DNA of 33,667 nucleotides from a virus, in the IMG/VR virus record IMGVR_UViG_3300027861_000108, positions 1 through 33,667 of that record; one strand, written 5' to 3'. Positions 1 to 22,621 of the stretch are shown piece by piece; the stretch's first letter is position 1, and every line of letters starts with the position of its first letter. A model generated the notes under the pieces. The model searched no databases. It was not told where the DNA came from and saw nothing but the letters and a program-made list of their open reading frames with translations. Position numbers and translations under genes: made by a program.

Positions 1-862
1 CTGCGGCCTCGGTAGTCTCGTCGGCCACCGGAGTGGTCGTGTTCGTGGAAGTGGTTGGAGCTTCGGCTTCAGCCACCTCTGAGACCGTGGCGACTGCGTC
101 GTTCGCTGGCTCCGCTACCGCTGCGGCTTCGGTAGTCTCGTCGGCCACCGGCACGATAGGTGCGGTGACCTACACCCGGACCGCATCCGGCGCAGCGACC
201 ATCGGCTCCTCGTCCACCGTCGCTGCCGTGTTCGTGGAAGTGGTTGGAGCTTCGGCTTCAGCCACCTCTGAGACCGTGGCGACTGCGTCGTTCGCTGGCT
301 CCGCTACCGCTGCGGCTTCGGTAGTCTCGTCGGCCACCGGCACGATAGGTGCGGTGACCTACACCCGGACCGCATCCGGCGCAGCGACCATCGGCTCCTC
401 GTCCACCGTCGCTGCCGTGTTCGTGGAAGTGGTTGGAGCTTCGGCTTCAGCCACCTCTGAGACCGTGGCGACTGCGTCGTTCGCTGGCCCCGCTACCGCT
501 GCGGCCTCGGTAGTCTCGTCGGCCACCGGAGTGGTCGTGTTCGTGGAAGTGGTTGGAGCTTCGGCTTCAGCCACCTCTGAGACCGTGGCGACTGCGTCGT
601 TCGCTGGCTCCGCTACCGCTGCGGCCTCGGTAGTCTCGTCGGCCACCGGCACGATAGGCGCGGTGACCTACACCCGGACCGCATCCGGCGCAGCGACCAT
701 CGGCTCGGCGACCATCGCCCTTGCGTCGTTCGCTGGCTCCGCTACCGCTGCGGCCTCGGTAGTCTCGTCGGCCACCGGCACGATAGGCGCGGTGACCTAC
801 ACCCGGACCGCATCCGGCGCAGCAACCATCGGTTCCTCGACCATCGCCGCCCTTGCCTATCA
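1..862 (+). repeat. In-frame tandem repeats (189-bp unit and shortened variants)
   Basis: The same string beginning gttcgtggaagtggttgg recurs at 41, 230, 419 and 539, giving spacings of 189, 189 and 120 bp. The 120-bp unit lacks the block coding TIGAVTYTRTASGAATIG. A further partial copy lies 129 bp on, with the FAGS codons at 600 and 729. Copies differ by only a few bases, such as FAGP for FAGS and gcttcg for gcctcg, so they were duplicated or homogenised recently. All spacings are multiples of three and keep the frame open. Copies continue off the left edge. Confidence 0.95.
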
Positions 863-2372
863 GGGAACCGCCACTTCTGACGCTAGCTTTACCTTGCCGA
901 CATCCACGGTATCGGTGATCTACGAGTTGCCGGCGACCTCCGCTGCTACGCTCGTCTCGACCGCTGTAGGGACAGTAGCTGGTGTCGAGACACCTACTGC
1001 ATCTATGACATTCGACCGACCAACAGTGTCCTTTTCCATGGTCTTCTCGACGCAATCAACAGCCTTTGCTAGTGTGATTTCAACCGTAACAGGAGAGTTA
1101 GGTCAGTTTGGTACGGGGGCTGCAAGTCTTTCCTCGACCGGCTCAGTTGCCGTTACTGTAGATTATTCAAGGCCGGCATCATCGGCAGCGACCATAAGCG
1201 CATCGTCTTCCACGAGCGTTAACGACCTGGCTCCTAGTGTCCTGGAAGCGGTTATTGCTCATGTAACAGCAACGGCTACGAGGATCCTGCCGTCTCAGTC
1301 AGTGTCAATCTCCGCAGCGATGGTGGTTTCTTCTGGTCGGCAACCAGTAGGACCGTCAGATCCGTTACAGAAATCAGTATCTGTTCATGGAATCTCGGCT
1401 ACCACGAGTGAGTCGCAGATCCCGATTTCTATTTCATGTATAGTGGTTGACACGGTATCAGTGACATTTGGCGCAACTGTTCCGGTATCAGGAACTGTGT
1501 CAACTACTGCATCGTCCACGGGTGGTGCGATAGATTTCGATGGAGACCTTGAAGCATCTTTTTCAAGTTCTGCCTCAGTGGCTCAAGGCAATGGAAGCCG
1601 TTTTTTCGCACAAGTAGTTATCGACGGGGTTGGTTCTTTGGGCACTGGCTTGACCGGCACCTTGCCCGCCGGAGCGACCATCGACGGAATAGGGAGTATT
1701 TCGGCTCCGCTTTTAACTGAAGGAGAAGCTGTGACAGTAGTACAAATCTGGAATGTTGCGTTAGTTGAACTAGGAGTTGGCACCATTGGGACTACCAGTG
1801 ATGGTTCTTCCCAGGCGATTTTGTTGAACACTGTATGGGAAGGTGGTTTCCGCGCCCAGTTCCTAGCAGACCACGCATGGAATGGGGCAAAGAGAACGAT
1901 TGACCTGGAAACTTTCAACGACTCTGCCGGCGATGCTATAGCCCCTTCTGGCCCGCGCTGGGCAAAGGCATATAACCTACCTGATGACTATTTGAGAGCC
2001 TTAACGATTAACGGTCTTCCGATGCAACCGAACGGTGGGATGGGCCAGAATCAGTGGGAGATCGAAGTCGTAAGTGACGGAGCAACCCCACCGACATTAA
2101 AGCGTTGCCTACTGTCGAACTCGGGCACGATTTCCTTAGAGTATGTGATGGACATTGGAGCTGACATTTATTTGTTATCTCCATTAGTTGCTCATGCAAT
2201 GGGGCTAGCCCTTGCTGCTCATGTTGCGACAAACTTTGGTAAGCCTCCTACTGAGCAAGCATACATCGCTCAACGGGCAGCTGACGCATTGTTAGCGGCT
2301 AAAGGAGTGGACGGTCAAGAGAGTAGTCCTCGGATGTTCTCGTCCACTTCATTGCTTGATGTGAGGAGATAG
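3..2372 (+). CDS. Repeat-rich virion protein fused to tail tubular protein A (5' partial)
   Basis: The frame is open to the left edge, so the N-terminus lies outside the window. Counting from base 3, roughly residues 1-290 are near-identical Ala/Ser/Thr/Val-rich repeats. Residues 290-570 carry older, diverged versions of the same beta-strand-like pattern. Residues 577-789 look like a complete tail tubular protein A (T7 gp11-like): a start at VVQIWNVALVELG, the segment NLPDDYLRAL, and a helical C-terminus with VAHAMGLALAAHVATNF. T7 gp11 is 196 aa, so this domain alone is family-sized. In T7 the protein forms the ring between portal and nozzle where tail fibres dock. Tail tubular protein B follows 3 nt after the stop, as expected. 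The repeat half may be a fibre or appendage; that is inference. GTG at 33 is only a codon inside the repeats, not a start. See the internal start at 1731. Confidence 0.85.
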   Translation, partial: AASVVSSATGVVVFVEVVGASASATSETVATASFAGSATAAASVVSSATGTIGAVTYTRTASGAATIGSSSTVAAVFVEVVGASASATSETVATASFAGSATAAASVVSSATGTIGAVTYTRTASGAATIGSSSTVAAVFVEVVGASASATSETVATASFAGPATAAASVVSSATGVVVFVEVVGASASATSETVATASFAGSATAAASVVSSATGTIGAVTYTRTASGAATIGSATIALASFAGSATAAASVVSSATGTIGAVTYTRTASGAATIGSSTIAALAYQGTATSDASFTLPTSTVSVIYELPATSAATLVSTAVGTVAGVETPTASMTFDRPTVSFSMVFSTQSTAFASVISTVTGELGQFGTGAASLSSTGSVAVTVDYSRPASSAATISASSSTSVNDLAPSVLEAVIAHVTATATRILPSQSVSISAAMVVSSGRQPVGPSDPLQKSVSVHGISATTSESQIPISISCIVVDTVSVTFGATVPVSGTVSTTASSTGGAIDFDGDLEASFSSSASVAQGNGSRFFAQVVIDGVGSLGTGLTGTLPAGATIDGIGSISAPLLTEGEAVTVVQIWNVALVELGVGTIGTTSDGSSQAILLNTVWEGGFRAQFLADHAWNGAKRTIDLETFNDSAGDAIAPSGPRWAKAYNLPDDYLRALTINGLPMQPNGGMGQNQWEIEVVSDGATPPTLKRCLLSNSGTISLEYVMDIGADIYLLSPLVAHAMGLALAAHVATNFGKPPTEQAYIAQRAADALLAAKGVDGQESSPRMFSSTSLLDVRR
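1719..1733 (+). promoter_or_regulatory. Internal ribosome-binding site and GTG start inside the fused ORF
   Basis: GAAGGAG at 1719-1725 is a near-perfect Shine-Dalgarno. Five nucleotides later GTG at 1731 is in frame and would start a 213-aa protein beginning MTVVQIWNVALVELG, exactly at the left edge of the tail tubular A homology. Out-of-frame TAA and TGA triplets lie just upstream, as at a normal gene boundary. The placement suggests that a stand-alone tail tubular protein is made in addition to, or instead of, the fusion. Confidence 0.6.
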
Positions 2373-2375
2373 ACA

Positions 2376-5036
2376 ATGGTTTGGATTCCACAAGAACGCT
2401 TTTCCTTCGGGGAACTCAGCCCTAGAATTTTAGGGATGGGCACCTCGGATCAAGTTCGTCAGGGTTGCAAGACCTTAAAGAACGGAGTTCTTACAAGGAC
2501 TGGCGGTGTTCGTCGTCGTCCTGGGATCAAACACATTGATGCTGTCGAAGGTAATGTAAATGCGCACCTCGTTCCGTACTCTGCGGCAGATGGTGACTAC
2601 CTGTTAGTCTTTGCGTATTCAGTCGGTCAGCAGTACGGGAAGCTTTATGTCTATAAGGACGGCGTGAAAATTGATTGGGGTGGGGGTGGAACACATGGTC
2701 CCTACCCTGCGAGCGGAGATGACACAGGTGCTTACCATCCTCTAGGTGTCCCGCCGTCCGGCGATACTGTCACCCATTTCCAGCACAATAATCGTGTCTA
2801 CATTTATTCCAGTTGGAGGCCGCCCCTTTATTTTGAGAAGAAGTATGGCACTCCCGCTACCTACGAATTTGGCATTGCGCCGATAGTTGGCGGATCTCCG
2901 CAATTGAAGTCCTATAAACCCAAGGTGGGGATTTCGATGCCAGAGCAGCCAATCCCGAACCAGAATCCCAACCCTCCAGGGTTAAGACTTCTATGCAAGG
3001 TGGAATCTACAGAGGACTTGTTCAGACCAGAAGATGTTGGTTCTATTTGGCGGCTCGGCGGTGCTTCCAAGTTCCGAGACGAGGACGGAATCATCGAAGG
3101 TGAAACGCAGTTCAATGGTATTTCATGTTGGGTCCGAATGGAGACCTTCAATAGCCCGACTACATTTACTTGCACAAGAATCACTAACGGGATGGGGGAA
3201 GATTCTAACGACTGGACTGGACCGTACATTCCTGACACCACATGGGCTGGCTGTTCATGGTCAGGTGCAAGCCGTGGTGATTTTGGTACTTTAACGAACA
3301 TCCCAATCACTCTGGACAACTCGTATGTTGGGAAAGTCTTAACAGTTCGCAGGGGAGTCTACGGAGATGCCACTACAGACACCGCAGTTTTATGGATTCA
3401 CTCGATTGATACTGTAGCGAACTCCGCTGTTTGCTACCTTGCAGGGTGGTCATTCGGCGACACTGTTTTCACTACTGGTACATACGATTTTGTTGTAACG
3501 AAGATTGCGACTCGTGAGAAGATCCCTGAAGTGGCTGTATTTCCCCGAGGGGACACACCCGGTGCGAACATTGTTTCCGGAAACTTTGACATCTTTTCTT
3601 CCACCCCGGATTTCCTCCCTGATGGTCATGAAGCACTGTTTGATGGCACCGGCGGAACGCTAACATTAGGTGGGGCTGTCTTCGCTTCTGACGCGAGGGC
3701 GAGGTGTAATGCTCGTACAGATGCTTATGATTACGAATGCATTGAAGGTACTTCAAGATCTTACTATGGGCCAACCTTCAACTGGGGTTACGGATTCAGC
3801 GAAGCGACAGGGTTCCCCGCCGTTGGGGCTAGTCACCAGGGCCGCGTGTTCATGGCTGGTTTCAGTAATGATAATCAAAACATTATTGCGAGTAGCCGGA
3901 GTGGTGAACCAGACGACTGGCAGCAAGGCCCGAACGACGACCAAGGATTATTGTTTAAGGTCTCCAACAATGTTGGTAACAGAATCCGATGGATGGTTTC
4001 CCAGCAGGACTTGCTGATAGGTTCAGACTTCTCTGAATATAAGTTGTCAGGCCAGCCTTTAACATCTACAAACCTCTCGGTAGATCTCCAAAGCCACTAC
4101 GGAAGTAACAATTCCCAGGCCATCCACATGGGTTCCTCAATCGGGTTTGTACCACGAGGCGGCCAAGGAATCCGAGAGATGGCTTACACTGAATCTTCTG
4201 ATAGATACCAGAGTGCTGACCTGACTGATTTAGCGGACCATCTCTGGTCGCCCACAAAACGAGCGCAGAAGTTGGTATTCACCCATAGCCCTGATCCATT
4301 TCTCTTCTGCATGGGCAACTCCGGTCAACTCGACATCATGACCTATAACCGGCAAAACAGTGTATTAGGGTGGAGTCCTACGAACTACGACGCATCGGCG
4401 GGGGAGAGAGTTTGGGACATGGCTGTCTTGACATCTCTTTCAGGGACTCGTGACGACTCTGTATACATGGTGATGTCTAGAACTATTGATGGTTCTACAC
4501 AGTATTCCCTGGAGGCTTTTACAGAAACAGCGCTGCTGGATTCCGAAGTGACCGTAGTAGGGTCGCCAACGACAAGTATCATCACAGGCTTGACTCACTT
4601 GGTCGGAGAGACCGTACAGGTACTAGCAGAGACCCAGTTCTACCTCGGCGAGTTTGTTGTTTCCTCAGAAGGTACTGTTGATATTAGTTCAGTAGCGAAT
4701 TCGTTCAATATCGCCACCGTTGGATTGCCATTCACATTCACGATGGCACCAGCTGTCGTAGATATTGATGGTCGATCCGGATCGACTCATGGTCATAAGA
4801 GAAGTTATGATCGAGCGATGCTTTACTTGAACAACACTCGTGGGGTTGTAGTCGATAAGTATTCCTTGCAGTCAATGCCTTGGATTAGCGGCCCAGCTCC
4901 TTCTGCAATAAATGGTTGGCAAGATGTGCCAGTGCTTGGGCTATACGGAACGAATCCAACACTTAGCATTACCCACAACAACCCGTACACGATTGAGATG
5001 CAAAGTATCACAATCGAAGTTAGTTACTCGGACTAG
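2376..5036 (+). CDS. Tail tubular protein B (T7 gp12-like nozzle)
   Basis: The 886-aa product begins with the family's hallmark N-terminus: a short FSFGELSPRI segment, then CKTLKNGVLTRTGGVRRRPG, the RRPG loop seen in podovirus nozzle proteins. Alternating beta-rich sequence follows to the end (for example LLVFAYSVGQQYGKLYVYKDG and QDLLIGSDFSEYKLSGQPL). T7 gp12 is 794 aa, so the length fits with modest insertions. In T7 the hexameric nozzle forms the distal tail channel below the gp11 ring. The start follows GAGGAGATAGACA, 3 nt after the stop of the tail tubular A ORF, so the two are translated as a pair. No anomaly was seen inside the gene. Confidence 0.94.
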   Translation: MVWIPQERFSFGELSPRILGMGTSDQVRQGCKTLKNGVLTRTGGVRRRPGIKHIDAVEGNVNAHLVPYSAADGDYLLVFAYSVGQQYGKLYVYKDGVKIDWGGGGTHGPYPASGDDTGAYHPLGVPPSGDTVTHFQHNNRVYIYSSWRPPLYFEKKYGTPATYEFGIAPIVGGSPQLKSYKPKVGISMPEQPIPNQNPNPPGLRLLCKVESTEDLFRPEDVGSIWRLGGASKFRDEDGIIEGETQFNGISCWVRMETFNSPTTFTCTRITNGMGEDSNDWTGPYIPDTTWAGCSWSGASRGDFGTLTNIPITLDNSYVGKVLTVRRGVYGDATTDTAVLWIHSIDTVANSAVCYLAGWSFGDTVFTTGTYDFVVTKIATREKIPEVAVFPRGDTPGANIVSGNFDIFSSTPDFLPDGHEALFDGTGGTLTLGGAVFASDARARCNARTDAYDYECIEGTSRSYYGPTFNWGYGFSEATGFPAVGASHQGRVFMAGFSNDNQNIIASSRSGEPDDWQQGPNDDQGLLFKVSNNVGNRIRWMVSQQDLLIGSDFSEYKLSGQPLTSTNLSVDLQSHYGSNNSQAIHMGSSIGFVPRGGQGIREMAYTESSDRYQSADLTDLADHLWSPTKRAQKLVFTHSPDPFLFCMGNSGQLDIMTYNRQNSVLGWSPTNYDASAGERVWDMAVLTSLSGTRDDSVYMVMSRTIDGSTQYSLEAFTETALLDSEVTVVGSPTTSIITGLTHLVGETVQVLAETQFYLGEFVVSSEGTVDISSVANSFNIATVGLPFTFTMAPAVVDIDGRSGSTHGHKRSYDRAMLYLNNTRGVVVDKYSLQSMPWISGPAPSAINGWQDVPVLGLYGTNPTLSITHNNPYTIEMQSITIEVSYSD

Positions 5037-5045
5037 GAGACAGAC

Positions 5046-5432
5046 ATGAACCCATTCACGATGATGTTTCTCAGCACTATGGTTAGTGGTGGGTCAAAAC
5101 TGATGGCCGGCCAAGCGGAATCAGATGCGTTCAATGAACAGGCACGAGAGACGCGGCGAGTCGGGGCAGAGAAGTCTCGTGTTGCTGGACTTGAAGGTCG
5201 AAGAGTTGTCGGGTCTCAAAAAGCCGGTTTCGGAGCAGCGGGAGTGGAACTGGAAGGTTCTCCGATGCTGGTAATGATGGAATCAATTGGGGAAACGATG
5301 CGAGAACAAGAATCAATAATAGCCGGTGCAAAATCGGAAGAAAAGACTCTTCGCAAGAAGGCGAAGCAGTCCCGAATGGCTGGTTACATGGGCGCAGCGG
5401 AATCGTTGTTCACGCTAGGCGCGAATTCGTAA
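5046..5432 (+). CDS. Internal virion protein B-like (T7 gp14 position)
   Basis: This 128-aa protein has a hydrophobic N-terminus (MNPFTMMFLSTMVSGGSKLM) and then a long Ala/Glu/Arg-rich helix containing QARETRRVGAEKSRVAG and a central GFGAAGVELEGSPMLVM motif. The motif is typical of the small ejected virion protein that sits between the nozzle and the two large ejection proteins in T7-like phages. T7 gp14 is 196 aa, so this one is short. In T7 gp14 enters the outer membrane and starts the ejection conduit. The same role here is inferred from position and the N-terminal hydrophobic segment. The leader GGACTAGGAGACAGA (5030-5044) supplies the ribosome site and contains the stop of the preceding gene. 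Confidence 0.75.
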   Translation: MNPFTMMFLSTMVSGGSKLMAGQAESDAFNEQARETRRVGAEKSRVAGLEGRRVVGSQKAGFGAAGVELEGSPMLVMMESIGETMREQESIIAGAKSEEKTLRKKAKQSRMAGYMGAAESLFTLGANS

Positions 5433-5459
5433 TAGATATGCTCAAGGACTAGGAGACAG

Positions 5460-8400
5460 ATGGCGATCAAGATACCTCGTTCCAGGATCAGTACCGCAGG
5501 TACGGCTCGAAGAACCCTTATGCCTGGATCAGAGGCTGGACTGGTCTACAAGAGTTTCGGCCAGTTAGCGGACTCGGTGACTCGTATCTCCGCTGGCCTT
5601 CTTGGCGAGCAGATGAAGGAAGACCAAGGAGTTTGGGAAACCAAAGCCAAGGCGAACTTCGAGAACGCTGAGATGCTCAGGGATCAGGCATTGCTGGAAC
5701 TGAGGAATGAAGAGAACCTGAACCCGATGGATCAACCCGTTGCTTTATTTGAGATAATGCACGACTTCGCTGACGATATTGAGGCTGGCGAGAAAGCGGC
5801 CCTAGAGGGTCTCCACCCCCGCTCCCAGAGGATCCTGTCTAAGTCTTCGGCCACCCGCCTGGAATCCCTTAGAGCCACTCCTGGCCCCCTTCTCAAGGCA
5901 ATGGCTGATAGCGTGGACAAGTCCCGGCTGGATCTCATTAATAGCCGTGCCCTGAATAACTATGGTGATTCCACAGACCCTGGTTCTCAAGCTGCTACCG
6001 ACCTGTCCTATGCTGCCGGTCTTCTCGACCGAGGGCTTATCAATGCTGGCGAGTTATCGGCAGTCCAGACCACTGCGCTAAATGGAATGCGGACCTCGTA
6101 TTTCTCTCGTGGTGCCGAGGGCCGTATGGATTATTTCCTTGGAGCCTTCGCCGAGGCTGGTTCAGGTGGTGTCGCGAATCTTCCAAGGAACATCGTCGAT
6201 AGGATTCGTGGAGATGTTTTACAAAACCGTGAAGGATATATCGGGTCTACTGCCACACAGATGTCTCAGTCGGAAGATGGATCTTTCACCGCCTCCCCAA
6301 CGGGCGGGATCCAGTATAATTCTCCTGATAGGGGTGACCTTGAAAGAGGAATAGCAGTAATCGACGCACTGGCTAGAGCAGGATTCGGAGAAGATGCGGC
6401 GACTCTCTTTGCTTCGGTAGAGATGGGTGGGCGCGCCCAAGATCGGATCAACAAAGCTGGCCGTGATTCGGTTAGAATAGCAAATGCGAATGGTCCTAGC
6501 GGGAATCTTGATGCTGTTCTGGGTGAGACCAGTTCCAGGCCGGTAGACCTCGACAAGTCTTTATCCGCTCTGCCTCAAGAACTCCTCAATTTTAACTCCG
6601 AAGCCCTCATAAAGATTTCAAATAAATACAGTGCTTTGCTGCCTTCACTTGCTGAGGCACTTAACAACAGAATGGACGAGGGCGACCCAGATGCTTGGCA
6701 AACTGCGTCAGATCTTATGGGGGAGCTTGGATTCATTCCGGTGAAAGCACTCCCTGATGGGTTTAAGTTTTCTCCAAAGCGAATCAGTGAGATCGTCAAC
6801 TACGGCAATGCCAGAGGAAACCAACCTCCTGCCCAAGCGGTGGTCAACGCTGTCGCCCAACCGAGCCGTGGCACTGGTCAAGGGGCAGGAGGCGGGAGAA
6901 CCGCAGCCCCTGACCGAGCCGATCTCATAGAGTTAATTTCAGAGGCCGTGAATCGCAATCCAGCAATAGGACCAATGTCTCAAGCTGGCAAGGACTCGAT
7001 CACGAATCTTATAGTGAACAACTACTACGAGAATAACTTGCAAACGATCCAAGCCGCCCCTGCTAACAGCACTCGCAGTGACGCTGAGAAGATTGGGTTA
7101 GCAATCGACGAATCAGTGGGTCAAGTCCTGAACGATTATCCACCTATCAAGAGGAACGGTCAGTCGTTCTTCCATCAGATCAGTCTTCCAGAAGAACAAA
7201 GAACGGACAACTCTGGAAATCCTGCTGACTCGGAAGCCTGGATCTATGATGAGTTGTTCAAAGTCCTGTCGGGGGGTTCCACGACCTTTCTTGATGACAT
7301 AACCGAGGAGGAGTTCTTCAGCGATATCGCACCGTACTTGCATATCCAGCCATTATCTACAGTAACGATGGGTGGTAAATCTTCCACATACACCGTCTCG
7401 TTTTTTCCGAAGGATGGCGAGTATGTTGATTCTCGGTCGGGACTAATCAAGAACAAGCAGAACACTCAGTTCATTTTCGAGCCACAGTACAAAGACTCTT
7501 TCCGAGCGACGGTGGGGCCGACCCCGGCAGGCCAGGATCCGCTCACCTTCGATACTCGGGAAGAGATCTCAGACGCGTATATCGAATCCTTGGTTCCTCT
7601 TGGCGACGGTTACTTCAAGCAGGGAACCCTTGGTGGATGGTTTGAAAGACAAGGTAGTGCGGCTACTAAGAATGTTGAAATGATTTCTTCAGAGATGTGG
7701 CATGGAACGACAGCTGTGTTCAGCCACCTCTCTGGAATGGTGCAGCGGTCGTTGATCGGTAACGAGCCGTTTGATGAGGCTAATGCGAAAGAACTAAAAA
7801 CACTTGAGAAAGACTTTGCCCGGTGGAGAAATCGCGGTTTAGAGAAGACAAGAAACAGTAACGAACTAGCAGGGCAAGTTCTGCTGATTTCAGGGAAAGT
7901 GCCACCAGCCTTGCTTAGAAATCCAGAGCTGGTTCCAGAGTTCAAAGATATCCTCGACCATAATGCTCGGGTATTAGACCCGTCATCGGGCGCGTCCGAC
8001 ACGATAACAGTGGACGGTGAAGAGATTAAGTTGCAGCCTTGGGCACTAAAAGCCAGGTCGAAGTTTGCCGCATTTTGGCGGTTCCAAGGATCTGGCGATA
8101 TTGCCCTCCACTCTCCTGAATACCAACAATATGTTTATGAGATGTCTCTCCACCAGCTCCACGATAGATTGGCCCAGAGATTTGCCGACGATCCAGAAGA
8201 GTTTATGAAGCAGTACCCTACCGAGATTCCTGCCGGCGCAGCCTCTAGGCTCACCCCTGACGCAATGAGGGCGTTAGTGGCTTCGACCCCCACCATACAG
8301 GTTTCTCAGTTTCGTGCGGACCATCCAACCAAACCCGGTAGTTGGATTCAGGTGCCAGGAGACCCACAACATGGTCCAAGCGAGTTCCCCCTCAAGCCAT

Positions 8401-9308
8401 TAGATTACAATCCCATCGACACTATTCTCGAGCTTGGTCCTGGTGCCCGTGCGTTTGATGTTCCAATCGGCGACCCTCGTGTTGTAGAGAAGAATGTTGA
8501 GATATGGCTCAAGCAGAATAACGCTACTGGGTCACTGATGCCCCCCCCAGGGGGTTATGTTCCACCAGGGTGGCATACTGATGTCGGGCTTATACAGGAA
8601 GTGGTTTCTGAGAATCCAAAGGAGTACACGAACAGGGTGGCCTCTGCCTTGTATGGAAACATCGGCGGCGAGGCAGGTGCAGAGGCGATCTTCGGGCAGT
8701 TCGGCTTCATTCCTGGTGCAGCGGATATGACCAACAAGAAACCTGGATGGATCTGGAAATACTACACCGAAGCGAGCCGGAAGTATGACATTGAATGGGG
8801 CACTCATCCAAATGAGGAACTAGCAAAGATGAAGATCACTATTGCCAGCCTCGTTCCAGGCGATGGTGCTTCTATTATGGCTTTAACGAACAGGCAGTTC
8901 TTCGATGTCTTGGAGGCTGGGTACAAGATCCACATCGTTGACGAAGAGCGCAGGATACTAATGGCTGTTGGTCAAACTCTCGTGGAAGAGTTGCCGGCTA
9001 TTATGCTAGAGGAGTTTGATGATAGGTCTGAGTGGTCGTATTACCGCTTCAGAGAATCAGCAGAAAGAGGCGACATGGGTGGTGCGCGAGTGGCTTTGTC
9101 TAAAAAGATAAAGAGTCACCGAGCAACCGTACTCGAACTGGTAGCGGCTAATGAGAAGATTCGCAAGTCTGGAAAAGGCGGGGATCCGGATATATATACT
9201 GATGATATCAAGGATCTTACCGATGGAATCAAGAGACTAGAAGCTGCGGCGGCTATGCTTAAGGACTACAAGGGCAAGTCTACGAGACCTTGGCGAAGCG
9301 GGGGAAGA
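5460..9308 (+). CDS. Large internal virion (ejection) protein, gp15-like position
   Basis: This soluble 1283-aa protein starts MAIKIPRSRISTAGT. An Ala/Glu-rich helical section follows (QMKEDQGVWETKAKANFENA, residues about 58-90), typical of gp15-type internal virion proteins. A long, mostly helical body comes next, with no recognised enzyme motif. T7 gp15 is 747 aa, so this is much longer. The C-terminus ends in a Lys/Asp-rich helix. Its place between the gp14-like and gp16-like genes, and its TAATG overlap with the latter, are the main evidence. In T7 gp15 spans the periplasm with gp16 during genome ejection. A C8 tract (8541-8548) lies inside the coding region without disrupting it. The stop is TAA at 9309-9311. 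I could not find a lytic transglycosylase signature, so a peptidoglycan-cutting role is not supported. Confidence 0.7.
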
Positions 9309-9310
9309 TA

Positions 9311-12300
9311 ATGAAGTCCCAACTACAACTACTCCAAGAAGCAATGGCAGATAAGACCATCCAGCAGCAGAGGTTGATGTTTGCTCAGGGATTCCATTCC
9401 CCGAAGACTGCCCTTGCCAAGAATACTGGTTTCACAGATCAGGTTGGTGCTTTCTTTCGCCAGACAAACACCGTCTACAACCTTGCGATTGCAATGAACG
9501 AGCCGATCTTCCCGCCGGAGCGTGGTTACAACCCAGCTGAAGATCCTGATGTCATGGCTAATCCGTGGATCAGAGAGAAATACCCAGAAGCCTTTACCAG
9601 TTTAATGAAAGCGGAGAGTCGAGTAGAGGCGAACTATCTCGTCAATAAGATCAGAGAAGAGAACCGAGACCGGGAAGTCATCCAGGAAGGCGGGTTGGTT
9701 TCCAATATCTTCGCTGGCTTAGGAGCTGGCGTGGTGGACCCAGTAAACTGGATCGCCTTCAGCGGTGCGACCAGGGCAGCCAAAGCCCTGAATGTCGCGG
9801 CTAGGCCAATGACGATTGCTGGGATAGGTGCCGCAGAGAATGTCCTTGGCCTGACGGTGGCCGAGCCGTTCTTGAGGATAGCCCAAGAAACTAGAACCGA
9901 TGAAGAGTTCCAGAGAGACTTGGTTGGCGGCGCGATCTTCGGAGCGATCATTGGAGGTATGAGCGGAGGCATCAGTTCGACTCGAACTGCTGCGAGCCGA
10001 GCCTTGCTAGGTGCGGACACCGTGGAGGATGCTCTCGACCCTGCATCGTATTCAGCATGGCTCCAGAGGAATCCAGTTGAGCAACAAAGACTAGACGAAC
10101 TGATCGAGGGTGACGAAGGTTTTGCTATCTTTGGTCAGGACCGAGAGGAAGTTGCAGGGATCCTCCTTAAGGCTACCTCGGAGATCAACCCAGGTCTTGC
10201 CAAGGTGCTTGGTATATCTCAAGGGATCTTGGGCAAACTGTTGGCGAAGTTGCTCTTTCTGAATCCGGAGATGAACCTTGCTCGTTCGGAGTCTCAGTTT
10301 GCAAGGGGTGCCCTAGACATAATGTTGAAGCCAGCCATCGTTCGTACCGACACTTTGAATCGTCAGAGTGTAGAAGCGGTAATGGGTATTGCTGAGATTG
10401 CCGGCTTGCGGATTCGCCATGACATGAATCTGGTATTTGCAGAGTACAGATCCGCTGGTGGCCGCCTGAGTAATGCAGAAGTAATGGTGCTTGGTGCTAA
10501 GGCAGCGGTGCGCGGTGATATCGTTGACCCGGCAAACGCTTCTCACGAACTTTCGGTATCGCCAACCACTGGTGAACTGGAATTGGTAAACCCCTTCGAG
10601 TCTATTATCGGAGACAGTCAGACCATTAAGGCTGTAGAGGAAGTTGCAAAGATAAACCGCAAGTTCTTTGACACACTCAGGAAGACAGGCGAATCGGCAG
10701 GGGCGTTTACCGGCGAGGATTTCATAAACTCTATTGAGTTAGAGAACTACCTGACACGGGTGTACAAAAAAGAAAAGATCATGGTGTACCTCCCGCAGTT
10801 CAAGAAGAGCATCTTCCTTGCCCTTGAAGACAAGAAGGCTAGAGAGCTGCCGGAGATGGAGGTTGAGCGTCAGAAGTTGGTGGACGAGCATGAAGCTCTT
10901 TCTGCCCCTGACCCAGTGGAGGGCGTGGTGCCGGAGGGTCCACCCGTTGCTCCACTTGCCCCCGGAGAGTTTGAACTGCCTTCAAGTGACCACCTCCGGT
11001 TCTATCACTATACCCGTGGAGATGTCGAAGTTCTCCAACGAGAAGGGATACGCTTCGACGAGGCTCAGGGCAGTACATATAACGAGCCTAACCAAATCTG
11101 GGCCAGTACGGAACCGCCGCCCAATACCAAGAATTTTGTCGAATTTGTGATACATAAGGATGATCCCCGGATTGGGGGCACGATCCCTCGTGGGGCAGGG
11201 GACTCTCAGGCAACCTTTGTCGGTGACATCTTGCCCAGCGAAATTGTTGCCACACATACGCCGGAAAGTAATGCAGTTCGCCATCTGTTGTCTAACGAAA
11301 GATTGTTACAGGAGGTCCGGGACTGGTCGCCAAATATGCAACGACTAGACCCCGATTCTGCACAGGGCCGAGCAGCGGCTAAAGTGCGTCAGATGATAGT
11401 GGAGGGCGAGGCCCCTCCAACCAGAACACCGTTACCCCTGGAGGAACCCCCTTCTCTCGCCACTCCAGATCCATCTTCAATCAATGAAACCACATGGTAT
11501 CACGGGAGTGCTGTCGAGATCGAAAGACCAACCCAAGATCTTTCAAGAACCGATAGTTTGTTCGGCATAGGCTTTTATATGACTGACGCGCCCTCGGTCG
11601 CTCGTGGGTATGGCCCGGTAAGTCATCGGGTGAAGGTAGATGTTAGAAAGACATTGGATTTCGATGAGGATTTACCTGATGACGCTTTTGACCTCATAGT
11701 TAGCAACGCTAGAGTTCTGCTCGGTGATGACAATTGGGTGCCGTCCAGCCGAAAGGGTTCAGAAGTTTGGGATGACATGGTGACGGAGTTATATCAGATG
11801 ACGATCTCCGTCGATGAAGCAGCAGAAACATTCCAGATTATTGCCGACGAACTGCGTCATGTACTGGGCTACGATGCTATCACCCACATCGGGGGTGGTC
11901 GGGCCGGTAGAGGGCGAAGGATGCACCGTGTCGTGATCTTGTTAGACCCAGAGGGGGATCGGTGGGGTGCCGTTCCTCCCGATTCAATTAGCCACAGGTC
12001 AGTTCTATCTATAGACACCGAACCACCCCCTCCAACCACCACCCCTGATCCAGCCCCTGCCCCCACTCCCCGCTCCCCCGAGGATCTTGCAGAGATAGTG
12101 TGGGATCGTGCCCGACTAGAACGAGAGATCGCCGTGTACGACGAGTGGATTGCAAAACTTGGCGACGAGGAGCGGTGGGAAGAGATCGCCAACCAAGTGT
12201 ATGAGAACATCACCAACGACACTGGCACCGGACCTCTTGGAGGAGGAGCCGGCAATAGCCTGAAGCAACGAGTCCTGACGGTAGAGGATCGGTTCATTGC

Positions 12301-14680
12301 TCCTTGGCTTGAAGACGATGTTATGAATATCCAGGCGAATCAAATCCGAAACCTGCTCCCTAAGTTGATCCTTTCTGGTGAAATGGATTCAGCAATGGAC
12401 GGGTTCCAGGTCTCGGCGAATCTTAAAAATCGACTGACTACCGTAACAGCCAAGCTCGACACCTTATCAGAGGATCCAACAAGCCTTACCCCGGCTGCTT
12501 TGGAATCTATCCACCTTGAACTAGAGCAAGTCCTCGACGACGCAGCTCACCTGAATCTGTCATCGCACATGAGGCTACATATTGATGTGAAGCAACTTGG
12601 GTTCTCCTCGATGGAGAAGGCGCAGACTCACCTGAACTCCTTGGTAGTTAATCTGAAGAACTTCAGAGCGGATCTCCATGCCAAGAGAAAGGTTGTTCGA
12701 GGTATTGATTCACAGATCGCACTGTTGAGGTCAGAGATTGAGGGGCTAGATGCTAATGGAAGGCCAGTGTCTACCGCGATGCAGAAGTCTCTTGACGACC
12801 TAGTTGTGGAAAGAACCAAAAAGAACAAGGAACTTTTAGAGGTGACTGCGGAGTTTGACCAGACTCGATCTGGAATAAACACAATGGCTGGCAAGTTAAT
12901 CTTCACTGAAAAAAGTTATGGCTGGAAGTTAGGGAGCAGCGCAGCTGAACGCTCAGATGCTCTCAAGTTCGGCAGGAACTTTATCGACGATCTCGGAGCG
13001 GTCACTGATCTCCAGAAACTTCAACGACTGATGGAGATGCGGGCAATGGTAATCCAAAGGTCGTCGAGTTCTCGAAGGTCTGCATTTGACATCAACTCAG
13101 ACGCAGAACAGGTCAAGGCCAGGATCGAGGAAGACTATCGTGGTCTTCATATTGGTGTACAGCAGAATGCAAGAATGACTATGAAGAAGAAGAAGCGGGA
13201 GGAAGAGAAACTACTAAAGAGAAAAAGTAGAGACCTTCGAGATATGGGATTGATCTTCGATAGATTCCACCGCACTGACGGTACAGGAAACGAGAGCTTG
13301 GGTAGAGTTGGAGCTGCGATTCGTGAAGCCAACTATGTTCGCCTTGGTGGTGGGTTCCTGCTGTCAAGTACCCCAGACCTCGCAATGGGGATCGGACAAG
13401 TAGGTCTGCCATCGTACTTCCGTGCCCTCGCTCGGTACATGAATCCATTCTTCAGAAACAAAAGACTATCAGAAGATATGGCCGACTGGGTTTACGCGAG
13501 TGAGGCCACCCTCGGTGGTGACCGAAACAGGAGGATAGCCGGCCTCGATGAGGAAGATCCCAAAAGGAATCACTTCATTGAAAGAGGGTTACACGCTACG
13601 AGCAAAGGTTTCAATAACCTGTTAATGCTAAACAAGTGGAACGGAATGATGAAGAGCGTCAATAGCGTGGCGATCCAGAACAAGATTATCAAGATAGGAA
13701 ACAAACTTCGATCAGGGAAGCGACTGAGCCGGTCAGACAAAGCCTTCATGGGTGGTCTCGGCTTAACCGAAGATCGACTTCAGAGGATTGCAATCCTCCA
13801 GGAAAAGTTTGGTGACACTGAATCCACGATACTTGGCGGGAAGTTTTATTTATCTCGGACCAGGAAGTGGGGTGCCGCTGGAGATATCGACGCGAGAACT
13901 GCCCTTGAGGATCGGTTGGCGTTTGAAAGAGCCACCTTCCAGCGTGTTCAGCAAACGATCATCACTCCAGGTGCTGGAAGTCTTCCGAACTGGATGACCT
14001 CAACGGAATTTGGAAGGATTATCGGGCAGTTCGGATCGTTCACAATGGCTGCTACATCTCAGCTGCTCATTCCCATGCTCCAGAAAGGGGCGATGATGGG
14101 GGACATGAATCAAGCATTGATGTTTGTTGGTGCCTCCACCCTTGGAGCTGTTGGATACTGGGCGCGCCGGAGTCTCGATGGTAAAGATCCATTTGAAGAC
14201 GAGGTGAAGAAAGACAAACGAGGTCGGGTTACTGCCAGAGTACCTTGGTGGAAGAAGAGCATACTAGAGGGGATTGACCGAGGGGGTACGCTCGGTTGGT
14301 TGTCACAGGGAAATGCTTACATGGAGCGCATGACCGGGGTGGGCGCGTCCACCCTACTCGGAGCAGGGCAACTGTCGAGGATGAAGTCAAGATCGAAAGT
14401 GGATATGCTGGCCGGCCCGACTGCTGGTCTCCTCAATGACTTTGGAACGGTGCTTGGCGCACTCGCTGAAAAAGGATTTGAAGGTAAGGAATTAACTGAA
14501 GGGGCTTACAACGCTGGCCGGCGGATGGTTGGTTGGCAGAACCTCATCCAGACTCGACTAGCGTTGGATGTTGCTCCTAGTATTTATGACGCACAGCGAG
14601 GTGGGTATGGGTCTCCGACCTATTTCGACAAGTTCATCCCAATCCAGCAACGGTTAAGAAATACCCTGCAAGAGGAATAG
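9311..14680 (+). CDS. Giant internal virion (ejection) protein, gp16-like, with ADP-ribosyltransferase-like insertions
   Basis: ATG at 9311 overlaps the upstream stop (TAATG) and follows GGGGGAA, so I prefer it to the in-frame TTG at 9290; it gives 1789 aa. The N-terminal ~240 residues hold Gly/Ala-rich hydrophobic stretches (VSNIFAGLGAGVVDPVNWIA, GGAIFGAIIGGMSGGISS) typical of membrane-entering ejection proteins. Residues ~560-655 begin LRFYHYTRGDVEVL and may be an ADP-ribosyltransferase (ART)-like fold. Residues ~727-890 are a better match: YHG at 730-732, GIGFYMTD at 752-759, GYDAITHIGGG and a closing RVVILLDPEG strand, as in ART domains of phage polyvalent proteins. Pro-rich linkers flank both. 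Coiled-coil helices follow, and the C-terminal ~500 residues (from about NYVRLGGGFLLSSTPDLAMG) resemble the C-terminus of gp16-type proteins. T7 gp16 is 1318 aa. Ejection of these domains into the host is inference. Confidence 0.82.
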   Translation: MKSQLQLLQEAMADKTIQQQRLMFAQGFHSPKTALAKNTGFTDQVGAFFRQTNTVYNLAIAMNEPIFPPERGYNPAEDPDVMANPWIREKYPEAFTSLMKAESRVEANYLVNKIREENRDREVIQEGGLVSNIFAGLGAGVVDPVNWIAFSGATRAAKALNVAARPMTIAGIGAAENVLGLTVAEPFLRIAQETRTDEEFQRDLVGGAIFGAIIGGMSGGISSTRTAASRALLGADTVEDALDPASYSAWLQRNPVEQQRLDELIEGDEGFAIFGQDREEVAGILLKATSEINPGLAKVLGISQGILGKLLAKLLFLNPEMNLARSESQFARGALDIMLKPAIVRTDTLNRQSVEAVMGIAEIAGLRIRHDMNLVFAEYRSAGGRLSNAEVMVLGAKAAVRGDIVDPANASHELSVSPTTGELELVNPFESIIGDSQTIKAVEEVAKINRKFFDTLRKTGESAGAFTGEDFINSIELENYLTRVYKKEKIMVYLPQFKKSIFLALEDKKARELPEMEVERQKLVDEHEALSAPDPVEGVVPEGPPVAPLAPGEFELPSSDHLRFYHYTRGDVEVLQREGIRFDEAQGSTYNEPNQIWASTEPPPNTKNFVEFVIHKDDPRIGGTIPRGAGDSQATFVGDILPSEIVATHTPESNAVRHLLSNERLLQEVRDWSPNMQRLDPDSAQGRAAAKVRQMIVEGEAPPTRTPLPLEEPPSLATPDPSSINETTWYHGSAVEIERPTQDLSRTDSLFGIGFYMTDAPSVARGYGPVSHRVKVDVRKTLDFDEDLPDDAFDLIVSNARVLLGDDNWVPSSRKGSEVWDDMVTELYQMTISVDEAAETFQIIADELRHVLGYDAITHIGGGRAGRGRRMHRVVILLDPEGDRWGAVPPDSISHRSVLSIDTEPPPPTTTPDPAPAPTPRSPEDLAEIVWDRARLEREIAVYDEWIAKLGDEERWEEIANQVYENITNDTGTGPLGGGAGNSLKQRVLTVEDRFIAPWLEDDVMNIQANQIRNLLPKLILSGEMDSAMDGFQVSANLKNRLTTVTAKLDTLSEDPTSLTPAALESIHLELEQVLDDAAHLNLSSHMRLHIDVKQLGFSSMEKAQTHLNSLVVNLKNFRADLHAKRKVVRGIDSQIALLRSEIEGLDANGRPVSTAMQKSLDDLVVERTKKNKELLEVTAEFDQTRSGINTMAGKLIFTEKSYGWKLGSSAAERSDALKFGRNFIDDLGAVTDLQKLQRLMEMRAMVIQRSSSSRRSAFDINSDAEQVKARIEEDYRGLHIGVQQNARMTMKKKKREEEKLLKRKSRDLRDMGLIFDRFHRTDGTGNESLGRVGAAIREANYVRLGGGFLLSSTPDLAMGIGQVGLPSYFRALARYMNPFFRNKRLSEDMADWVYASEATLGGDRNRRIAGLDEEDPKRNHFIERGLHATSKGFNNLLMLNKWNGMMKSVNSVAIQNKIIKIGNKLRSGKRLSRSDKAFMGGLGLTEDRLQRIAILQEKFGDTESTILGGKFYLSRTRKWGAAGDIDARTALEDRLAFERATFQRVQQTIITPGAGSLPNWMTSTEFGRIIGQFGSFTMAATSQLLIPMLQKGAMMGDMNQALMFVGASTLGAVGYWARRSLDGKDPFEDEVKKDKRGRVTARVPWWKKSILEGIDRGGTLGWLSQGNAYMERMTGVGASTLLGAGQLSRMKSRSKVDMLAGPTAGLLNDFGTVLGALAEKGFEGKELTEGAYNAGRRMVGWQNLIQTRLALDVAPSIYDAQRGGYGSPTYFDKFIPIQQRLRNTLQEE

Positions 14681-17538: not shown

Positions 17539-18099
17539 CTACTGTCGTTTCTCTGCTTCCTTCGACGCTGCCCTGGTCGCGAGTATTTCTTTGGCATACA
17601 CCCACTGGTCTCGCTGTTTGTGCGACCTGATGTACTCAGTAGGTTGGGCAGCGGCCTCTTTATAACACTGAAGGGTTTCGGCGGCCATAGGGCAGCCCCA
17701 ACCCCACCATAGTTGACAAGCACAGATAGATTTCTCAATCATACAGACCAGATCCCTGGCAGTTTCAGACCGGCATATGATACCGAGAAAAGATAACAAG
17801 CTATTGTTTGTAGACGGCAGCTCGTGCAGGAAGCGGAGGAGTTCTTCAAGATCTATCTCGGTAGACCTCCCCTCTTTATCATAGTATCTGAAGTTCGCCT
17901 CTTCACCCTCATTGGTTACGGGATAGGAGTAGAGGGTCTGGATGTCGTGAGTCCCGTCTTGCAGATTATGAATGACAATCTGCAATCTCACTCGACCATG
18001 AAAGTGGTATACCTGGACGGAGAACCTTGCTCCGAACTCCACCAAACCGAAGTCTTCAGTTGGCGTAACTTCCAAATCTCCAGACCCTCTCTTAATCAT
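17539..18099 (-). CDS. Hypothetical protein (186 aa)
   Basis: Start and stop are well supported by gene packing: ATG at 18099 overlaps the RecT stop by ATGA, and the downstream ribosome site begins at its stop. The N-terminal ~100 residues are beta-rich (GLVEFGARFSVQVYHFHG, VRLQIVIHNLQDGTHDIQTL). The C-terminal half is helical with several Cys and Trp (CMIEKSICACQLWWGWGCPM). No family was recognised. Its place in the recombination operon between RecT and an endonuclease suggests a DNA-metabolism or regulatory role; this is association only. Confidence 0.7.
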   Translation of the reverse strand: MIKRGSGDLEVTPTEDFGLVEFGARFSVQVYHFHGRVRLQIVIHNLQDGTHDIQTLYSYPVTNEGEEANFRYYDKEGRSTEIDLEELLRFLHELPSTNNSLLSFLGIICRSETARDLVCMIEKSICACQLWWGWGCPMAAETLQCYKEAAAQPTEYIRSHKQRDQWVYAKEILATRAASKEAEKRQ

Positions 18100-19313
18100 T
18101 CGACTTCTGTGATATCAGCAACGGAGAATGCAGGGGACTCAGGCTTAGAGTCGGAATCCCTGTAAGCACCCTCTCTAGCAGCAGTGAAGTGGTCCTTGCC
18201 ACCCCTCTTCGGGATCCGCAACAGCACATCCAGGTCGCAGTTTTCCTTCCAGTCCTCCACCTTTGAGGAATCGAAGGGTACGAAAACTTTCTCTACTAAA
18301 CCCCAGAACTCCTCGGCGTTACCAGGATTAACCCCTTCTGCCTTTGCCCGTTCCTTAATCATCCGCTCCCGCATGACAGTGATTTTATACCACTTCCGAA
18401 CAGGTGACCCAATCATTGCAGCAACCCTCTTGGCGTGTTTGAGGTGGTCCTCATGATCGAACCTGGGAGAGGGGGAAGAGGGTTCCTCTACGGGTGCCTC
18501 AGGGGCTTCAGGTTCGACAACCACCACCACTGGCTCCGCTACCACTGCGTCCACGATACGGGGCTTATCGACGACGACAGCGGGCGTGTCGAGACGCTCC
18601 ACCAGACCCGCGGACCCACGCTTCTTTGCCGGCCTCACCTCTGCTGGCAAATACTCAGCGTCGTCACTGCTCTGGATCGCTTCCTGTACCTCCGGACTCA
18701 GCTTGATACGCTTCAACGCCCTGCGAATCACACTCTTCTTGGCCATCTCCTCGAAGTATTGTACCCAAGGTCCGTTGTTTCCACTGCGGGAACCACTACG
18801 CACCTGTTCGATATCCTCAAGGTTCATCGTCTCGATCTGACGGCTACCATTCTTGAGGTCAACAAGACAGTAGCATCCTACCACTGGACCCCTCGACTCA
18901 GCAGTTCCGAAAGCATCGTAGTCGTGAGAGAAGTTATCTTCAGTGCGCTTGTAGATATCATTCTTCCGCACCACGCCAGAGTGAATCGCATTCACCGTTC
19001 CACTTCGGTTCGCAAGGTCAATCAACCCAGCATAACCAATCACAAGGTTAGCTTGGTCACCATATGGCACGATCCACGCACTACCCAGCACTCCAATGTC
19101 AAGGCCCAGGTGGGTGGCTCGAATGATGGAGTTGATAATCGTATCAGGCCGGCAGTTCTGGATAGCCGGATTCATCTTCACCTGACTGCTGACATTCCTG
19201 AGGAATCTGTCCTGCTCGATATTCCCAGGCAACAACTCCAAAAGTTTGGGGCCAGATTTCTCCAGCCAATTGTCCACTCTCTGTATACTGTTCACTTCTT
19301 GCGTCCCTTCCAT
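18096..19313 (-). CDS. recT: RecT-family single-strand annealing protein with C-terminal extension
   Basis: The first ~230 residues carry the RecT core: NPAIQNCRPDTIINSIIRAT, then HLGLDIGVLGSAWIVPYGDQ, VIGYAGLIDLANRSG, and the end pattern GPWVQYFEEMAKKSVIRRAL. RecT anneals complementary strands behind a 5'-3' exonuclease; here a YqaJ-type exonuclease is encoded immediately upstream with overlapping ends. Typical RecT proteins are about 270 aa. This one is 405 aa, because a Val/Pro/Glu-rich linker (~residues 250-300) joins a second, unrecognised Lys/Glu-rich domain. ATG at 19313 is used. An in-frame GTG at 19295, which overlaps the exonuclease stop as GTGA and has GGAAGGGA upstream, is an equally good start. 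Confidence 0.95.
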   Translation of the reverse strand: MEGTQEVNSIQRVDNWLEKSGPKLLELLPGNIEQDRFLRNVSSQVKMNPAIQNCRPDTIINSIIRATHLGLDIGVLGSAWIVPYGDQANLVIGYAGLIDLANRSGTVNAIHSGVVRKNDIYKRTEDNFSHDYDAFGTAESRGPVVGCYCLVDLKNGSRQIETMNLEDIEQVRSGSRSGNNGPWVQYFEEMAKKSVIRRALKRIKLSPEVQEAIQSSDDAEYLPAEVRPAKKRGSAGLVERLDTPAVVVDKPRIVDAVVAEPVVVVVEPEAPEAPVEEPSSPSPRFDHEDHLKHAKRVAAMIGSPVRKWYKITVMRERMIKERAKAEGVNPGNAEEFWGLVEKVFVPFDSSKVEDWKENCDLDVLLRIPKRGGKDHFTAAREGAYRDSDSKPESPAFSVADITEVE

Positions 19314-20185
19314 CGGAGTACTCTGAACTCCGTGTCGTTGGTTGTGTAACTAGCCCTCTTCTGTTTCAAATAACTCAACTCACCCAAACTACAAGTACCA
19401 CCCTCTGCGTCAGACAACGCAGCCATCAAAGCAGCTTTCGCATCCCGTTCGTCTTTGGTTGCTTGAGCCTTCAGCTCCCTGGTAACTAGCCAAGAACGCA
19501 CCAGATCTTCCGATACTTCTACCGTAGAGTCAGGTTGCCGGCGTAGATTTGTCATGGTTTCCAGGCTCGGTAGCACCTCAGTCGGTGGAACTTTCGGGAT
19601 AACATGATCGTTCCAGAAGGATAGAACTTTGGCCTTAGCACCCTCAAAGATCTCCTCATTCTTGTGTACTATGTAGAATGAGCGACGGAGATTCCCGTCA
19701 CCATGCAGTACCGGAATCACTACGCGCTGAAGATCTGCCACAAATATTTGCCACTGTGCTTGCACCAGTATGTGGTCAGGCACCTCGTCGGTTCCTTGCT
19801 CACCAAACACCCCATACATCGAGGTAGTCTTCGCCTCAATGCCCACCCTCTGGTCTCCGTATATCGAGAAGCCATCGAGGTTGGCGTGGGCCGGTAACAC
19901 CCTACCGTCTGGCTCCTCCACCAGCTTCGTGAACTTCTTGTCTACCTCCACGAGACTGTCCGGATTCCTGTTACCCAACTGCTCGTCTGCCCAGATCACA
20001 AGCATAGGCTCGCAATCATTACCCAGATTCTGCGCCTCAGTCCCTCCTCCATGGTCAGTACCCACAACTTTTTGCAGGTAAATGTCGTGAGCATTTGCAA
20101 ATGGACTCAAGCCCATGATCGCTGCAACATCCGAAGCCCCGACAGATACCCGCCTAGCCTCCAGTTCTTCCACTGATATAGGCAA
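19292..20185 (-). CDS. YqaJ-type viral exonuclease (lambda Exo fold)
   Basis: Family hallmarks are clear: RRVSVGASDVAAIMGLSPFA near the N-terminus, the nuclease core HANLDGFSIYGDQRVGIEAK (Asp in LDGF and the Glu-x-Lys of IEAKT), and the ILVQAQWQIFVADLQ helix. It is expected to degrade one strand of dsDNA ends to load RecT. I prefer TTG at 20185 because AAGGAAGGGAG sits at ideal spacing upstream; a GTG at 20218 gives 11 more residues but has a poor ribosome site. The stop lies 22 nt inside the recT start region, so the two proteins are translationally coupled. The C-terminal ~100 residues are a helical extension with a basic end (VLRWKGRKK). Confidence 0.9.
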   Translation of the reverse strand: MPISVEELEARRVSVGASDVAAIMGLSPFANAHDIYLQKVVGTDHGGGTEAQNLGNDCEPMLVIWADEQLGNRNPDSLVEVDKKFTKLVEEPDGRVLPAHANLDGFSIYGDQRVGIEAKTTSMYGVFGEQGTDEVPDHILVQAQWQIFVADLQRVVIPVLHGDGNLRRSFYIVHKNEEIFEGAKAKVLSFWNDHVIPKVPPTEVLPSLETMTNLRRQPDSTVEVSEDLVRSWLVTRELKAQATKDERDAKAALMAALSDAEGGTCSLGELSYLKQKRASYTTNDTEFRVLRWKGRKK

Positions 20186-20258
20186 TACAAACTCCCTTCC
20201 TTTAAAGTAATCTCCCACCGATTGGTCGGATAAGGTACACCATTATCGTGGTATGGTC

Positions 20259-21653: not shown

Positions 21654-21731
21654 CTATTGTCCATTCTTCCTACGATCTAACTCTGGAACCACGATCATGA
21701 TAATCACTAACCCGATGATGGTTATTAACAT
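21654..21731 (-). CDS. Tiny membrane peptide (25 aa)
   Basis: ATG at 21731 overlaps the end of the GP88-family gene (gga tgt taa / atg tta). The peptide is MLITIIGLVIIMIVVPELDR plus a short KNGQ tail: one membrane helix and a charged C-terminus. The overlap with the upstream stop favours real coupled translation. The function is unknown; such peptides can act as membrane-targeting, superinfection-exclusion or toxic early proteins. Confidence 0.5.
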   Translation of the reverse strand: MLITIIGLVIIMIVVPELDRRKNGQ

Positions 21732-22621
21732 CCGGTCACCGATACACAGAAACCACTTGCGATTGCGTGTTTCCTACTAGCTTGTCCTTTCCATTCTAGG
21801 AATTGCCATGTTCCGGGAGTGTCTCGGTATCTCACATCGTGACGGTCACCATCTTCTACTGGCAAACCACACCATGTTGACGGAAATTCATGTCTCTTTA
21901 GATTCACCGGAACCGCAACCGATCCTCCGCGATTGACGATATCAACTGACTGTCGATGGTTCTTTTCGCTTCTTGAGTAAGTAAGATGCCGATTGTCTGA
22001 AAACTTACCCGATAGGAATCTTCCTAGTCGCGATGTAGATTTACTGTAATCGTAGAAATTGCAATCGGAGAATCGGTCGAACCCAGACAACACATCACCT
22101 ATCCCTGTATCGGTACTACCATCAATTCGTGCTGCCGGTTCGATTGAATTTCTACGACAGCTTAAGATGTGACTGTCTAATTCCAGCATTAATAGTCTGA
22201 TGAATAGGTCTGGATTCCCTACTAGTAGCATCGTTTTCCATAGTTTGGAATTCTTACCAGATCTGATTTTCAGATGCCAACAACCACGACCTAGACATCC
22301 GGCAGTACACGCCGGACTCCTATTGTCGCATAACTCAACTCCGGATTCACGACCGGGAGAACCGTACCAGATCAGGGTCTTTACTGGTTCCGGGATCGAC
22401 TCCCCCTTTTCGGTTTTGGTACCGCTGCCAAATATATTAATGCTGGCATCCGATACCGGGAGAATTGGTATCACCCTCCTGAATCCTAAACCGAGCGCGC
22501 GGATCTGTATTCTATGCCATGTATCACGAATTTCCGCGCGGATACTAGATCTAGATCCACAATCCACATCGGAGTACTTCCACAACTGACTAGGCGATAT
22601 GATGGGGTAGGATTTTCTCAT
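21725..22621 (-). CDS. GP88-family phage protein (Cys-rich, unknown biochemical role)
   Basis: I recognise the pattern of the GP88 family first named in mycobacteriophages: a Cys cluster with ACTAGCLGRGCW (Cys at 98, 105, 109 and 114), then KTMLLVGNPDLFIRLLMLEL, a helix-rich middle with NFYDYSKSTSRLGRFL, a HLTYSRSEKN motif, and the late motif EDGDRHDVRYRDTPGTWQFL followed by KG. The Cys cluster could bind a metal or iron-sulphur centre. The biochemical activity is not established to my knowledge. The start at 22621 has AAGGGG at 8 nt and overlaps the upstream 48-aa gene by ATGA. Length (298 aa) looks complete. Confidence 0.75.
   Translation of the reverse strand: MRKSYPIISPSQLWKYSDVDCGSRSSIRAEIRDTWHRIQIRALGLGFRRVIPILPVSDASINIFGSGTKTEKGESIPEPVKTLIWYGSPGRESGVELCDNRSPACTAGCLGRGCWHLKIRSGKNSKLWKTMLLVGNPDLFIRLLMLELDSHILSCRRNSIEPAARIDGSTDTGIGDVLSGFDRFSDCNFYDYSKSTSRLGRFLSGKFSDNRHLTYSRSEKNHRQSVDIVNRGGSVAVPVNLKRHEFPSTWCGLPVEDGDRHDVRYRDTPGTWQFLEWKGQASRKHAIASGFCVSVTGC

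Follow-up and report, generated by a model that had tools for sequence, protein, structure and literature searches.

A putative two-product gene joins a T7 gp11-type tail adaptor to an adhesin-like arm in a clade of uncultured phages

In the DNA analyzed here, the first gene of a viral contig joins a repetitive stalk, in one uninterrupted frame, to a complete tail adaptor of the T7 gp11 (TtpA) type. The fusion recurs in diverged relatives, a ribosome-binding motif and a start codon are preserved at the head of the adaptor, and the domain that precedes the stalk is exchanged between related phages. It is likely that this gene is nested and gives two products, namely a long adhesin that is anchored in the tail ring by its C-terminal part and a short, plain ring subunit. 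We also lean, more cautiously, toward a clade-wide reading: the ring would be a mosaic in which some subunits are fused, through their N-terminus, to a long, swappable adhesin. The polarity of such arms would be reversed, with the tip at the N-terminal end and the anchor at the C-terminal end, and their number would be set by translation initiation. Throughout, “the window” denotes the entire 33,667-nt stretch that was analyzed (IMG/VR record IMGVR_UViG_3300027861_000108).

Results

The fused reading frame and its adaptor domain

The frame at positions 3–2372 (+ strand) contains 789 codons without a stop. It runs off the 5′ edge of the contig, and the true N-terminus is missing from the window; full-length homologs occur among the relatives (L001–L059). 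The initial annotation had described 570 residues of repeats joined in one frame to a ring protein. The single frame stands, but the 570 residues are only the in-window part of a frame that is open at its 5′ end. The first part (3–1670, +) is a stalk of A/S/T/V-rich repeats: near-identical direct DNA repeats of 120–189 bp occupy ca. 1–861, and diverged repeats lie beyond. Over residues 1–576, A, S, and T together make up 53% of the sequence, and this region was without a match to any Pfam or PHROG family; the exact sequence of the repeat DNA was absent from the viral contigs searched. A conserved junction (1671–1730, +; GATIDGIGSISAPLLTEGEA, of the pattern I-D-G-x-G ... L-L), apparent from an alignment of the relatives' junctions, directly precedes the internal start. 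The latter comprises a GAAGGAG Shine-Dalgarno motif (1719–1725, +) and a GTG codon (1731–1733, +).

The remainder of the frame (1731–2372, +; residues 577–789, 213 aa) matched phrog_394, annotated as a tail protein, with an E-value of 4.3e-25. Because this match covers profile positions 2–188 of 190, the adaptor homology starts at the internal GTG, which bears out the earlier placement of the homology boundary at that codon and its GAAGGAG motif. A profile of 14 relatives identified one convincing protein of known structure, the connector of the Carin-1 assembly (8ck1 chain E; E = 2e-8). In an AlphaFold2 model of the junction and adaptor, the pLDDT of the adaptor was ca. 67–88 by block, with one loop at ca. 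52 and a poorly predicted C-terminal tail. The model features a four-helix bundle with a β insertion (helices 147–164, 177–197, 301–319, and 323–343, with strands between). When it was compared to known structures using VIA-align, Z-scores of 13.3 (8ck1_E), 12.1 (LME-1), and 11.7 (T7 gp11, 7ey7_M) were obtained, and Foldseek returned the same families. The next gene (2376–5036, +) encodes the gp12-type nozzle, TtpB (phrog_376, E = 5e-89); the adaptor thus directly precedes the nozzle, as in the gp11/TtpA gene order. Judged from the profile matches and the predicted fold, the last 213 aa of the frame are a T7 gp11-type adaptor.

In T7, the fibers (gp17 trimers) are encoded by a separate gene and dock between gp11 and gp12; the dock on gp11 is the region between its helices 2 and 3 (PMC6702177). 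Since a β region is retained at the equivalent position in our model, between helices 2 and 3, a separate fiber could still dock on this adaptor, a point that weighs against a fused arm taking the place of the fiber. As the initial annotation had remarked, no gp17-like fiber gene was recognized in the window.

The terminase, portal, capsid, and internal virion proteins of the window are arranged in podophage order. The gene at 9290–14680 encodes a protein of 1796 aa with an N-terminal match to phrog_342 (internal virion/endolysin) and a C-terminal match to a different family, phrog_16310; its start codon is TTG, and it shares 22 nt with the gene before it. On the − strand, the stretches 18096–20218 and 21725–23198 hold a RecT-like annealing protein and an adjoining RecE-like exonuclease; a RadC-like JAB protein and a protein resembling GP88 are encoded in the vicinity.

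Relatives and spread of the fusion

Viral contigs were searched with the adaptor profile, yielding 54 loci. A lineage was defined as a cluster of adaptors at 90% identity (n = 21); the lineages share ancestry and are not independent samples. Several loci were cut by contig ends, and L018 and L058 show only 31–33 residues upstream of the adaptor. All adaptors that were at least 42% identical to that of the window were either fused or open to the contig edge. The initial annotation had allowed that relatives might carry a stop codon between the stalk and the adaptor; none of the 21 lineages does. In the complete relatives, 610–986 aa (counted from the first start codon) precede the adaptor. The protein of L001, a close relative with an adaptor 97% identical to the window's, is 1017 aa long and begins with a non-repeat domain of ca. 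190 aa.

The window begins within near-identical repeats at a contig edge, a setting in which a sequencing or assembly artifact might have joined two genes. The fusion, however, was seen again in assemblies made independently of one another (over 40 loci in all, drawn from numerous samples and 21 diverged lineages), and such an artifact, the chance of which we put at next to nothing, was rejected as its source. Only the repeat count of the window, being taken at a contig edge, is unreliable.

In more distant relatives (L024–L033, 26–28% identity), the adaptor is plain and is translated from a start of its own, with a short extension in L031–L033. As the adaptor gene stands alone both in these relatives and in the pelagiphages, the fusion is the mark of a single clade. 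No adaptor relative was found in bacterial genome contigs, and no prophage form or host was found there. A search of the open-license literature returned no description of a TtpA fused to a fiber. In one public record (MW202742.1, L062), the gp11-like adaptor at 4983–5549 is annotated as “major capsid protein”, probably in error; upstream of it, at a distance of a few genes, is a gene for a pectate lyase.

The internal start

At the boundary, all 21 lineages have a codon that can serve as a start (GTG in 11, TTG in 7, and ATG in 3), although the encoded residue varies (V, L, or M). In these genes, GTG accounts for 22% of Val codons and TTG for 18% of Leu codons. The chance that 18 of 18 Val or Leu codons at the boundary would be GTG or TTG is ca. 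3e-13 if the lineages are treated as independent, and the real probability is higher owing to their shared ancestry. The Shine-Dalgarno energy at the internal start averaged −8.35 kcal/mol, compared to −2.1 kcal/mol at 687 other in-frame NTG codons. When codons were redrawn with the amino acids held constant, the energy was −5.09 ± 0.55 kcal/mol, and the minimum in 300 draws was −6.5 kcal/mol. Around the internal start, RNA structure was less stable than in other parts of the gene (mean rank 0.73, P = 4e-4). The AGGAG motif occurs in different codon phases (AGG AGC in L016 and L019, GGA GAA in the window), which points to selection on the RNA. A start codon and a ribosome-binding motif are therefore conserved inside the long frame, as in nested genes, and the earlier proposal that this site releases a plain adaptor has been strengthened.

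These data also bear on the possibility that all adaptor subunits are long, such that the ring has twelve arms and the internal start either sees little use or survives as a relic from an ancestor in which the adaptor gene stood alone. A twelve-armed ring is possible, and the fusion is universal in the group. We nonetheless deem this alternative quite improbable: a relic would not keep its start codon and a strong Shine-Dalgarno motif while the proteins have diverged to 41–89% identity between lineages, and the Val and Leu codons at the boundary are always GTG and TTG. Rather, we favor use of both starts. The long form itself often starts from a site with a weak motif, overlapping the stop codon of the gene before it. 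With the internal site being strong, the plain adaptor would be expected in excess, and the long form would be the scarcer product.

A stop codon (TAA or TGA) in the +1 frame was observed exactly 17 nt before the internal start in 17 of the 21 lineages, including the window (1714–1716); in 20 of the 21, there is one somewhere between −20 and +1. These stops could be taken to mean that the long form is a fiber released from the adaptor, by a +1 frameshift at the Leu-Leu of the junction or by a protease, and that the 0-frame fusion is a minor product. Given the amino acids, however, 11.7 of 21 lineages would be expected to have the stop at −17, and the P-value for 17 or more is only ca. 0.004 with the lineages treated as independent. 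The slippery sequence is not conserved (CTT-TTR-A occurs in about half), and an in-frame stop would achieve separation more simply. Because the amino-acid null explains most of the −17 stops, frameshift or proteolytic release is only a minor rival, and we hold it to be very improbable; the excess at −17 is weak and unexplained. The reading with two initiation sites is thus retained below.

The stalk and the exchangeable N-terminal domain

Full-length relatives consist of three parts: an N-terminal domain, the stalk, and the adaptor. The stalk sequences are unrelated to one another, and in most of them A, S, and T make up one third to half or more of the residues. The period of the repeats was 23 residues in at least nine of the stalks tested and 20–24 in most others; L004 (25), L020 (18), and L059 (none clear) are exceptions. 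In the group closest to the window, periods of ca. 20–22 and their multiples were detected weakly. Because one period persists under diverged sequence, the stalk suggests a rod-like fold in common rather than a disordered linker. Near the junction, the pLDDT of the modeled stalk was mostly below 40.

The N-terminal domain spans ca. 180–390 aa (limits judged by eye). By BLAST, these domains sort into nine groups, seven of which (starting MAI, MAL, or MAV) align weakly with each other and may constitute one superfamily. Domain and adaptor do not travel together. The adaptors of L001 and L002 are identical, and their N-terminal domains are unrelated; L050, L052, and L056 have adaptors that are 95–97% identical and N-terminal domains from three groups. 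Conversely, similar N-termini are found over dissimilar adaptors in L001/L010 (79% vs. 53% identity), L003/L036 (87% vs. 54%), and L020/L051 (73% vs. 43%). Modular exchange between related phages, by which podophage tail fibers are recognized, is therefore seen in this domain, and because it is swapped between near-identical phages, the domain is probably receptor-binding. The initial annotation had suggested that the repeats could be the fiber. The data support that idea only with a modification: the repeats make up the stalk, and binding is likely the task of the swappable N-terminal domain, which lies outside the window.

Neither the stalks nor the N-terminal domains matched any Pfam or PHROG family, and tblastn of phage records returned no match to them. 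A model of the type 1 N-terminal domain was β-rich (pLDDT 56); its best Foldseek E-value was 0.015, with none below 1e-3, and no known fold was recognized in it. The most divergent fused gene, that of L059 (5376–6450), has an N-terminal domain unlike all the others (MATVVTKTVKPGGGGDYTSLQSW...), which was without a sequence match in the PDB, Pfam, or PHROG; by eye, it is perhaps a β-helix.

The upstream gene and the ends of the contig

Immediately before the fused gene lies a gene that occurs in two main types, unrelated to each other; which of them is present varies together with the type of N-terminal domain. A gene of ca. 121–169 aa accompanies the first N-terminal group (e.g. L001, 5224–5589), and one of ca. 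370 aa accompanies most MAI-type domains (e.g. L003, 2315–3436). The upstream gene usually overlaps or touches the start of the fused gene. The 370-aa and 121-aa genes had no Pfam match; it is possible that the upstream gene encodes a partner or chaperone of the adhesin. An alternative assignment starts from this gene: the long form might be an appendage of the head or neck, or a factor needed in assembly or entry, and host binding might be performed by the genes upstream. The upstream gene is indeed exchanged along with the N-terminal domain, and the binding activity could lie there. Against this, the N-terminal domain is itself swapped between near-identical phages, which is typical of receptor-binding parts, and we consider the alternative unlikely. 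An adhesin role for the long form remains the preferred assignment.

At the other end of the window, 33417–33665 (+) is the beginning of an upstream gene of the 370-aa type, inside which the contig ends. It is 42% identical over 84 aa to a 381-aa gene of L017 that ends at the start of the L017 fused gene. The window's missing N-terminal domain is therefore probably MAI-type. The two ends of the window (33417–33667 and 1–3) belong to adjacent genes, both of them part of the exchange cassette. It is therefore probable that the record is a circular map opened within this cassette, with roughly 1.5–2 kb or more missing.

Discussion

The proposed mechanism is as follows. Initiation at the N-terminal start would yield a long protein comprising the exchangeable N-terminal domain, a stalk of ca. 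20–24-residue units, and a complete adaptor; initiation at the internal NTG would yield the plain adaptor. As each form contains a full ring subunit, the two could mix in the adaptor ring, whose 12 subunits would sit between portal and nozzle. Some of these subunits would then bear an arm, anchored by its C-terminal part and projecting from the ring at the place to which the separate fibers of T7 dock. How many arms there are would depend on how often each of the two starts is used.

The adaptor resembles T7 gp11 and other TtpA proteins (PDB 7ey7, 7box, and 6r21; KP32 TtpA, 5mu4) in predicted fold (Z of 11–12), in size, and in its position before the nozzle, but gp11 is a stand-alone protein, unlike the fused adaptor described here. 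The nearest relative of known structure, both by sequence and by predicted fold, is the connector of the marine podovirus Carin-1; that protein has 222 aa without a long N-terminal part, and the fibers are separate components according to the PDB title. Pelagibacter phages HTVC010P and the Skadi group resemble the phage described here in gene order (terminase, portal, capsid, TtpA, TtpB, internal proteins) and have a portal that is ca. 25% identical. Skadi-4, however, has a separate adaptor gene of 193 codons, and HTVC010P has a TtpA-sized gene (ca. 193 aa; assigned by size and position) before the nozzle, with a separate annotated tail fiber gene downstream.

Phage genes with internal in-frame starts include λ C/Nu3 and T7 gene 4A/4B. 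The phi2638A endolysin isoforms arise in the same way (PMC12203907). In all three, as is proposed here, there are one frame, two starts, a C-terminal short form, and cooperating forms; in none of them is a tail adaptor combined with a stalk of adhesin-like character. A gp17-like fiber has an N-terminal virion anchor and a C-terminal tip. The virion-binding part of the long form would be C-terminal, and we have therefore not classed it as gp17-like. Tail tubular proteins of a Vibrio phage are reported to contact a host receptor (PMC7241545); on the strength of that report, host contact near the adaptor ring is not unheard of.

If the proposal is correct, these phages, which from their sequences form a large uncultured short-tailed group, have solved in another way a basic problem of virion design, namely how a symmetric ring can be given host-binding arms in controlled numbers: the fusion of two genes, together with a second site of translation initiation, would do what a docking interface does in T7. 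A dual-product adaptor/adhesin gene would be an unusual way of attaching such arms to a virus. For annotation, the practical consequence would be that, in these phages, genes automatically named as tail tubular proteins probably contain the host-range determinant, overlooked, at their extreme N-terminal end.
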